DNA from: Haematococcus lacustris
Taxonomy: Eukaryota > Chlorophyta > Chlorophyceae > Chlamydomonadales > Haematococcaceae
Length of the DNA stretch: 64,000 nucleotides
NCBI GenBank assembly: GCA_030144725.1
Contig: JASKMD010000005.1
Span: forward strand, 5,199,910 to 5,263,909
Reading direction: 5' to 3'
Shown one piece after another: positions 26,191-43,189 of this stretch. The position numbers were made by a program, and so were the translations under genes. The notes under the pieces were generated by a model. The model was not told the DNA's origin. It saw nothing but the letters and a program-made list of their open reading frames with translations, and did no database searches. Position 1 is the first letter of the stretch. Each line of letters starts with the position of its first letter.

Positions 26191-26232
26191 CAACATAGAG
26201 GAGAGTCAATGATGTTGTTGTGTGACACATCA

Positions 26233-26382
26233 GGTCACCCCGGCCATTGGCCATGCCAATCCGTGACAGGCCTGCGCATCGCACCACGCCCTAGTGGAGG
26301 ATAGCGAAGGCTATCGCGGTAACTCGCGCGCGCTAAAACTCGCGTTTTAGACTGAAGCCTTGTACTTGATCACCGCCCGCCA
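26233..26382 (+). repeat. Left terminal inverted repeat of the 16.9-kb transposon
   Basis: It is paired with 42986-43135 in inverse orientation. It contains an inner palindrome 'ctaaaactcgcgttttag' (26333-26350). Confidence 0.88.
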
Positions 26383-26946
26383 TTCCCGCGGACTGTGAAC
26401 ATGGTCGCTCGCTGCAGCCTGGGGCTCAACGGGGTGCCACCGTACGTGGGTCGCAGGTCGAAGCGCAAGATTCCCTGGGTTGGGTCGGGACCCCTCATGG
26501 CCCGGGCCCTTCCTGACACCTGGAGCGAGACCTGCCTAACCCTCCCTCCAAGCAAGCAGAGCATCTCACTAAGGTGTCAGCAGCACCGTGCGTGGACTTT
26601 GTTTCGCTACCGTGCACTCTGCTGAAGCCTAGACCCCATCATTCCGGGGTATTTGTCAAGCCCTTGAATCTTTCGGCCAATGGTCCTTTCCGCGTGCTTC
26701 CACCTTTGTCGGATAGCTGGGCGGGTCTATATTCCGGGTTGTGCTCCAGGCATACTCCATCACCTTGTGTGGTACACACAATGACAAAATGTGGCAGCGG
26801 GTGAATGTGGCATGGGCCGATCTCATCACAGGGGCGATTGGCGGCGTCCTTGAGCACAACCCGGATGGGTTAGACCCTGTGCCGCCGCTAGGCGCCGTCA
26901 TCGCTGCATTTCTCGCACTGTACGCGAAACTCAAGCTGAAATTGCG

Positions 26947-29900
26947 ATGGGCCATCCTGGGCCCCGACGCCGCGCTGCCCTGGCACGCGAACATGCGATA
27001 CGTGCCAAGCTGGTAAGTAGTGGCAGTGGCAGTGGCGGACACCTCCATTGTGGCGGGAACCCCCATTGTGACGGGAACCTATACCTTAACATCATGCTCC
27101 TCCATCCTACACCTTGCAGCTCCCTACCGAGCTGCCAGCCCTTGAAACAGCCCTTGCAACACCACAACAGTTAAGCAGGGATGCCAGCACATGGGGCCAG
27201 AAGCGCCCACGCACCTGCCTTGGTCGGGGCGCCCAGCAGCAGCTGAGCATGGACCAGCAGCATCTGCAGGGTGCCCAGCACCAGCTGGCTGTGGACCAGC
27301 AGCAGTTGCAGGATGCCCAGCACCAGCTGGGCTTGAACCAGCAGCAGCTGCAGGATGCCCAGCACCAGCTGGGCTTGAACCAGCAGCAGCTGCAGGATGC
27401 CCAGCACCAGCTGGCTGTGGACCAGCAGCAGTTGCAGAATGCCCAGCACCAGCTGACAGTGAACCAGCAGCAGCTGCAGGATGCCCAGCACCAGCTGGCT
27501 GTGGACCAGCACCAGCTGGCTGTGGACCAGCAGCAGTTGCAGAATGCCCAGAACCAGATGGCTGTGGACCTTGAGCAACTGCAGGGTGCCCAGCACCAGC
27601 TGGGTCAGGCCCTCGAGCAACTGCAGAACGGCAGGACGGGGCTGGAGCGCAGCGAGATACTGTTGCGTCAGCACATGGACGCTTGCATGAGGTGAGAGCT
27701 TGACCTGCTGTGACCTGCTGGGACCTGCTGTGACCATGTGCTACTGACCTGCTGTGACCGGCTGGGACCCATGTGCTATAAACCTGTTGTGACCTGCTTT
27801 GACCCATGTGCAGGGCACCCACCATGGATCTGCCGAGCTATGCAGCCATGCAGCCATGCAGCCATGCACAGCGATGCACAGCCATGCAACCTGCCATGCA
27901 ACCAGCCATGCACAACCATGCAACCGGGCATGCAACCAGCCATGCAGATGCACAGCCATGCACAGCCATGCACAGCCATGCACAGCCATGCACAGCCATG
28001 CACAGCCATGCAACCTGAGATGCGGCGCATCTGTTACATGCGCAACTGTGTCCCCAGCGCAACAGCTCAAGCTGCTTATTCTGCGGCCCTCCCACCCGTG
28101 AGGCTGCACAACAGCTTTAGCATTCTGTCATCCTCTTGTCCAGGACATGCCAACAGCCCTGTTGCCCCAGTCACCCCAACACCTGTAGCACGGCGGGCAG
28201 CCCGTCAGAAGGAGAGGAGGAGGCTTGGTTGCCTTCAAAAGCAACAGCGCAGGCTACGGCGTCATCAGCAGCATGCAATCACAGGTGGCAACAGCCAAAA
28301 GGGGCGGGGGCAGGAAGAGCAGGAGGGGCATGAGGAGCAGGAGGGGCAGGAGGAGCAGGAGGGGCAGGAGGAGCAGGAGGAGCACCAACAGCCTTCAGTC
28401 CCTCACCGTCACCTGCGGGCTGCGGCTACAGTGATTGCCAAGCAGTTTGCTCCCTTCCGCAGAAATGCTGGTGCCACTCAGCAGTTGGTACAGTTGCTAA
28501 GGAAGCAGCCTGCCATGCAGGAGGCACTAAGCCATGTGCCGATGTCAGCCAAGCATCAGGTCGGTGTCATGGTGCTAGATAGGATCAGCGCTCTGCAGGC
28601 AGGGACCTGCGGCCTGGCTGGGGGCCAGACCCTGGGCAACATGCAGGCCAAGGCAGTGCTAGCCTCCATCGTCCCTCCTGAGTTGGGTGAGCACAGGTTG
28701 CTCAGAGCATTCAGCAAGTTTACAGGGTGTCCCAGGGACTGGGTGAGGGATGCAGCAGCTCGCAACGCTGCCCCAGCCCCCCTCCACAGCAGCGGCCGCG
28801 CCGTCCATTTTGACAGCGCCAAGCGGAGAGACAGTCGTGGCAACCAAGGCATCAGCCAGTCAGACTTTGACGCAGTGCGCACATTTCTGCACAACCACAG
28901 CAAGCCATCCCCCAGCCGGAAGGACCTAAGGACTTGGCGAAGCGTCATCATGACTGCAGCCCAATTCCACGGGTGAGACTACACTCGTGCAAATTAAGGC
29001 CTGGCTGGCTTGAAAAACCTGAGAGTTGAGTTCTGAAACTTGGTATGTGGGTTGCTGTGACCTAGAGGATGGCAAGACTCTCTTGGGCCAAAGTGTAATT
29101 CTCACTCGGTGTCGAGTTGCTGGGCCAGGTGTGGGGCTGAGACCCTGATTTTGGCTAAGGGAGTTGGCACCGTGTGACCAAAGTGACTTTTCATGAAATG
29201 TGAGTATGAGAGGTTGTAAAGGGTGGTTACAGCTGCCCAACCTAGTAGGTGGCATGCAAAAAGTCCCAGCCTGTGATGAGCTATGGCCCGTGTCCTAGGA
29301 CCCTGTGCAGGTTCCTAGCGTCATCATGGTCGTAGGACCCTGTACAGGGTCCTGGCACCTCACCACAGGGTTCTGGCACCTCACCACAGGGTCCTGGCCC
29401 ACAGGGTCCTGGCACCTCACCACAGGGTCCTGGCACCACAGGGTCCTGGCACCTCACCACAGGGTCCTGGCACCTCACCACAGGGTCCTGGCCCACAGGG
29501 TCCTGCTGCACGCCCACAGGGTCCTGGCACCACAGGGTCCTGGCACCTCACCACAGGGTCCTGGCACCTCACCACAAGGTCCTGGCCCACAGGGTCCTGC
29601 TGCACGCCCACAGGGTCCTGGCACCACACCACAGGGTCCTGGCCCACAGGGTCCTGCTGCACACCCACAGGGTCCTGGCACCTCACCACAGGGTCCTGGC
29701 ACCTCACCACAGGGTCCTGGCCCACAGGGTCCTGGCACCACACCACAGGGTCCTGGCACCACACCACAGGGTCCTGGCACCACACCACAGGGTCCTGGCA
29801 CCACACCACAGGGTCCTGGCACCACACCACAGGGTCCTGGCACCACACCACAGGGTCCTGGCACCACACCACAGGGTCCTGGCACCTCACCACAGGGTCC

Positions 29901-42661: not shown

Positions 42662-42985
42662 GGCCAAGCACTTTCGATTGAAACCAGCAGCACCAACTGA
42701 GCCAGAATAGCACGAACTGAGCCGATAAAGCCGATTAAGGCAATGGCCAAAAAATTGACAGTGCCATGCGCCCAACTTGCACAGTTTCAGCTAAGCGTGG
42801 CGTGACTCAGTCTCGTGGTGTAATGACATGGCTCGGTAGCATGGCGCACTGCGATGGCCTACTCCGCAGTACTGCGAGGCTGCCTCCATGGTGCGAACTT
42901 TGCTACGGACGCCACGGAGCGCCTCGCCACCCTGCTCTTGTAGGTGGGTCGCTGCTTGTTTGTGCTATCTCAAGTTTCGACCTGG
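42662..42985. other. 3' flank of the transposase-like gene inside the transposon
   Basis: Non-coding DNA between the stop codon and the right inverted repeat. No feature beyond probable 3' UTR. Confidence 0.45.
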
Positions 42986-43135
42986 TGGCGGGCGGTGTAC
43001 TGGGACAAGGCTTCAGTCTAAAACGCGAGTTTCAGCGCGCGTGACTTACCGCGATAGTTTCAGCTACCCTTCACTAGCGCGTGGTGCGATGCGCAGGCCT
43101 GTCACGGATTGGCATGGCCAATGGCCGGGGTGACC
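42986..43135 (-). repeat. Right terminal inverted repeat of the 16.9-kb transposon
   Basis: Inverse complement of 26233-26382, followed by ATCA. Confidence 0.88.
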
Positions 43136-43189
43136 ATCAGCAGCCAAAGGCCGCTCGCGCCGCTCGCCTTAACCTACCCCTTGTCTTGA

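Follow-up and report, generated by a model that had tools for sequence, protein, structure and literature searches.

The locus and its gene

We analysed a transposable element in a 64,000-nucleotide stretch of DNA (the window) on contig C312 of the alga Haematococcus lacustris (pluvialis), whose genome (308 Mb, 597 contigs) was used for the genome searches. We consider with high confidence that the element is a cut-and-paste DNA transposon copy of about 5.26 kb that was swollen to 16.9 kb by a nested insertion in a 112-bp intron. Its left terminal inverted repeat (TIR), which starts with GGTCACCCCGGCCATTGGCC and recurs in the genome, spans positions 26233-26382 on the plus strand, and the right TIR, detected by self-comparison of the window, spans positions 42986-43135 on the minus strand. 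The two show 90% complementarity across 150 nt (E 5.5e-55 within the window); the initial annotation was right about inverted repeats of 150 bp, but their identical outer part measures 57 bp and not 56 bp. As it had also described, the tetranucleotide ATCA is read directly outside both TIRs, at 26229-26232 on the left and 43136-43139 on the right, as the target-site duplication. Without the nested insertion the element proper comprises about 5,263 bp.

The coding parts are on the plus strand. Matches to the relatives P0006 and P0008, absent from the initial annotation, were found by tblastn at 26789-27012, where the frame of the window disagrees with these proteins within 26938-26965. Further downstream are an exon of glutamine-rich heptads built of 21-bp repeats (27123-27692), recognised by its repeats, open reading frame (ORF) and tblastn matches, and an open frame holding exon 3 (27714-28972), which P0070 matches at 28464-28973 and P0064 at 28599-28973. 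Exon 4 (40725-42661), defined by its ORF and by comparison with other copies, encodes cysteine motifs and the DDD catalytic core. The intron as it stands measures 11,752 bp (28973-40724), with a GT donor from 28973 and an AG acceptor up to 40724, and the coding blocks on its two sides join in phase (GG/G), as proposed earlier. Both blocks are joined at the identical residue in the gene models P0001, P0064 and P0070 from three other contigs, and in copy L026 they lie 112 bp apart, which bears out the view that they form one gene. We propose that this gene would be transcribed as one unit and spliced in cells to encode a transposase. The signatures SDG..QFK and ATSHFKG..D..GG, which had been noted before, are present in the window protein; a SAP-like end is hinted at only, by a sub-threshold Ish1 match in the relative P0010 and by confident C-terminal helices in the structural model.

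Immediately to the left of the insertion, an imperfect tandem duplication occupies 25734-26185 (80-85%, spacing ~300 bp), and stretches related to it are present elsewhere on the same contig.

Genome copies, target-site duplications and empty sites

A genome search with the left TIR gave 1,102 candidates, and all of the best 40, which were scored, are at least 96% identical to it. From the stretches around these matches we tabulated 23 TIR pairs, the window copy included, leaving out L029 (TCAC/TACT, 8.5 kb apart), extra ends in a cluster on contig C90 (L016, L017) and unpaired ends. Identical 4-bp flanks were found in 18 of the 23 pairs and differing ones in five. ATCA, ATAA, AACA, TGTA, TCGT, CGTA, AGCT, CAAA and TACA are examples of the duplications; their first base is A or T in 14 of 18 cases and their last base in 16 of 18, with a mixed middle. 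Among the 18 pairs with identical flanks (36 ends), 57 of the outermost 60 TIR positions do not vary, a figure that is biased upward because the copies were picked by their TIR similarity. Many copies are internally deleted forms of 1.1-3.6 kb whose ends match those of the window element. The suggested search with the TIR thus uncovered many other copies with the same termini, short derivatives among them. The shared TIRs and matching flanks confirm that the initial annotation was right to see a DNA transposon that has TIRs and duplicates 4 bp of its target. The family has many copies and is recently active in Haematococcus lacustris (pluvialis).

Copy L036 (L036:101-2071; 1,971 bp, TACA duplication) splits a tRNA-Gln(CTG) gene. 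When its flanks are joined with one TACA, ARAGORN recognises a tRNA of 72 bases, and none in the interrupted halves. The empty junction matches 16 other places in the genome over ~73 bases or more with 90-100% identity (22 matches) and one further place over 43 bases; these uninterrupted tRNA-Gln places are paralogous empty sites of L036. The proposed check for empty sites therefore succeeded for L036 but not for the window copy, for which a genome search for an empty allele of its insertion site gave 10 matches, none spanning. TIRs common to many copies, a duplication of fixed length and empty sites are together the hallmarks of cut-and-paste TIR transposition.

Two copy arrangements stand apart. 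At C90:6163769-6177728 (L016, L017), several copies of either orientation are clustered, and CTGA/TCAG recurs at their flanks as though an insertion had been multiplied together with its surroundings. L013 has no duplication but lies between ATACACAT and the reverse complement of that sequence, which places the copy in the middle of a palindrome.

The catalytic core and the state of the window copy

The transposase core is predicted to be of the RNase-H-like DDD type and would be catalytic: motif conservation, a profile match and a weak but consistent model agree on an RNase-H-like fold with three acidic residues. The first catalytic position was located at 41591-41593 by motif alignment with relatives, and the second and third Asp at 41846-41848 and 41969-41971 by motif alignment and profile match (all on the plus strand). 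At the first position, Asp is found in 46 of 46 relatives in which the motif was found; the window copy has AAT, encoding Asn. Every fetched locus in which the corresponding codon could be read has GAT; these six loci amount to four distinct copies because L006/L013 and L008/L010 overlap. At the third position, 68 of the 70 algal or metagenome proteins with the motif have Asp, as do 90 of the 92 other eukaryotic-type proteins with it, counts that exclude the pattern-less proteins (31 of 101 and 28 of 120, respectively). The Glu of HDSEGG was considered as the third catalytic residue and dropped, since this position is Gly in the aligned relatives and the Asp before it is retained. Structure matches of the core model include no named transposase, which decides nothing.

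Exon 4 of the window copy also contains a frame break at a run of C (41051-41058) whose length differs from that in L026; the initial annotation had reported neither this break nor the Asn. With Asn at the first catalytic position and a broken reading frame, the window copy is probably dead and carried along by a family that has otherwise been active recently, and its autonomy, which the initial annotation had assumed at least for the recent past, is improbable. The core exon itself was found at no fewer than 92 rows in a genome search (the best 90 of 1,395 candidates scored), 82 of them at 81-100% identity and 10 at 53-54%. Residues 1-473 of this exon, considered separately from the rest of the gene, are free of stops at 15 other places and carry one TAG at four more; L013, one of the stop-free places, is without most upstream exons.

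Relatives of the transposase and its classification

A profile-profile comparison using hhalign matches the window family to a eukaryotic family with cnidarian members (probability 99.5, E 2.3e-23), in agreement with the earlier statement that relatives occur in other eukaryotes. Like the algal protein, P0113 and P0172 of Clytia hemisphaerica and relatives from eukaryotic metagenomes contain cysteine pairs and alignable catalytic motifs: VDYSE, WSDGCASQFR and HHGKGPMDGVGG correspond to the algal CDWSE, WSDGCA.QFK and third motif. On the other hand, identity is only ~19% over the aligned part, and a PHD-like C-terminal finger, seen below the Pfam cut-off in four of eight of these relatives that were scanned, is absent from the algal protein. 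Viral contigs and prokaryote genomes yielded matches to the pattern, none of them relatives.

In a tree of 39 cores the algal rows are separated from all others with full support and form at least four groups, one of which contains the window copy; the animal group of this tree is our label for 18 rows, two of which are named (Clytia). A 54%-identical group includes an element at L048:1707-6350 (4,644 bp) with AGCT duplications, whose ends GGTCACCCCCGCCATTGGCC are 95% identical to the first 20 bp of the window element. In two protein searches, 62 of 63 and 73 of 75 matches are named Haematococcus lacustris genes. In the NCBI models P0011, P0085, P0090 and P0097 the transposase is fused with host-type Pfam domains (PF00574; PF03330; PF00702/PF00690/PF00122; PF07714/PF00069); these fusions are either prediction artefacts or captured exons.

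According to the excerpts of the literature that we consulted, Sola elements combine a DDD transposase with duplications of 4 bp, their TIRs measure 11-1124 bp, their ends vary greatly and some of them exceed 15 kb (PMC10741241), and the Sola2 elements of amoebae have AT-rich AWWT duplications (PMC3627910). The window family resembles Sola in its DDD core, 4-bp duplication, TIR length (150 bp) and multi-kb size. It differs in that its duplications, with ATCA, TGTA, TCGT, CGTA and AGCT among them, are not restricted to the AWWT of Sola2, the comparison being one of described traits alone. We file the family beside Sola because duplication length, DDD core and TIR length match these descriptions, and by such traits it is probably a member of Sola.

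A less likely alternative, with the same element and the same history, is that the transposase represents a separate, unnamed superfamily. This would explain why a Pfam scan of the catalytic ORF returned no family at E up to 1 and nothing convincing, and why no solved structure related by sequence to the window protein was found; the departure from AWWT also points this way, and the name Sola depends solely on duplication length, DDD core and TIR size. However, all three of these general traits are present in the window family, and the variability ascribed to Sola ends (PMC10741241) leaves room for ends of this kind. The idea of a new superfamily, raised in the initial annotation, is unsupported inasmuch as the protein falls into a DDD family found in eukaryotes and the traits compared fit Sola as described. 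More doubtful still is the view that the algal, cnidarian and metagenomic relatives constitute a DDD superfamily of their own, characterised by GGTCACC ends and 4-bp duplications and reaching from green algae to animals; it is equally tentative that current libraries lack such elements or scatter them under other names. No description of the family was found in the consulted parts of the literature on Sola or on transposons in Haematococcus or green algae, which is not proof of its absence.

The nested insertion in the intron

We used the DNA of 28680-29280 as a query and scored the best 40 of 1,228 candidates (41 rows with the own locus). The query matches its own locus over the full length, eight places over exactly positions 1-302 and 32 places only from about position 303, and this break puts the boundary of the nested insertion at 28981/28982. 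The filling is missing at all eight other scored places that have exon 3 and the start of the intron, and GTGAGACTAG is retained in all eight. Intron lengths in the seven copies with a readable acceptor are 112, 112, 129, 129, 145, 174 and 182 bp; L039 diverges before the acceptor. In L026 (4,992 bp, AGCT duplications) the empty intron site reads ...GTGAGAC-TA-GAAGG... within a 112-bp intron, and at the same site the window reads GTGAGAC-TA-[CACTCG ... CGAGTG]-TA-GAAGG. From the empty intron sites in other copies, the 11,752-bp intron resolves into a native intron of 112 bp (28973-28981 plus 40622-40724) and an insertion of 11,638 bp (28982-40619) with its TA duplication (28980-28981 and 40620-40621).

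The termini of the insertion, CACTCG[T/C]GC..ATTAAGGCC, are inverted over roughly 20 bp and enclose minisatellites and a Ty3/Gypsy element. Its left part (28982-29280) is present at the 32 other scored places, with 97-100% identity in all but one; the CACT-ended family is very abundant. Two other copies of it, L044 and L045, run on into the same minisatellite, and therefore we assign the minisatellite arrays to the inserted family. TAGG on both sides and the palindrome ACCCTGTACAGGGT, found solely at the two ends, had suggested that 29300-40467 might be a second nested element; this idea was discarded because L044 and L045 cross its boundary into the same repeats.

CACTA elements have ends starting with CACT, 2-bp duplications and tandem repeats near the ends. 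Like CACTA/EnSpm, the insert has CACT-starting TIRs, a 2-bp duplication and subterminal repeats, and from its sequence it looks like a CACTA-like element. Its TA duplication is observed at this single site, CT preceding the same end in L044 and L045. No ORF of a CACTA-type transposase was noticed in the insert besides the Gypsy gag-pol, autonomous relatives not having been searched for.

The Ty3/Gypsy element is a long terminal repeat (LTR) retrotransposon with a chromodomain at 30553-36837 on the minus strand, bounded by the 5-bp duplication CATGG (30548-30552 and 36838-36842). It is young: its LTRs (30553-30852 and 36539-36837) share 99.67% identity. Between them are gag (34866-36512) and pol (31104-34865), with the order reverse transcriptase, RNase H, integrase and a chromodomain, as in Ty3/Gypsy chromoviruses. 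The two coding parts share one frame with a single stop codon between them (34866-34868), as if pol were produced by readthrough.

The initial annotation had taken the locus for a giant autonomous element of 16.9 kb, in which an 11.75-kb intron is normal. Exons in phase across the whole stretch are compatible with this, and giant DNA transposons, including a 21.5-kb Sola-1, are described for Ectocarpus in the part of PMC12477816 that we consulted. But the intron of every other readable copy measures 112-182 bp, the filling is another repeated family with its own TA duplication and ends, and no other copy with the same filling is among the scored places; 16.9 kb as the size of the element is thus abandoned, and the giant-element model is very improbable. 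That the two blocks are unrelated genes within a large inverted-repeat structure, a notion favoured only by the many related sequences named merely hypothetical proteins at NCBI, is refuted by L026, where both blocks stand between TIRs with AGCT duplications, and by relatives on other contigs with both blocks in one protein, and we give it virtually no credence.

Proposed mobilisation and significance

We propose the following mechanism for the cut-and-paste transposon of about 5 kb that underlies the present locus. Its transposase would bind the TIRs, the DDD core would make a double-strand excision of the element, and strand transfer at staggered cuts 4 bp apart followed by repair would generate the 4-bp target-site duplication. 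Internally deleted copies, which keep their ends, may have been moved in trans by the transposase of other copies. In the window copy, a CACT-ended, CACTA-like element has inserted at TA in the 112-bp intron and, holding the young Ty3/Gypsy element, has brought the locus to 16.9 kb; the window copy itself would be at best a passenger.

The nesting illustrates that the giant size of a transposon and of its intron can be the accident of a single copy. Among the genes published for the alga, a large share of those entered as hypothetical proteins encode this transposase, or, put for the whole set, it makes up a large share of it; its recognition cleans the annotation of Haematococcus. Copies with a full-frame catalytic exon, short derivatives with intact ends and a natural tRNA target with clean empty sites provide the means for a practical activity test of a DDD transposase that has received little study, in an alga used industrially for astaxanthin.
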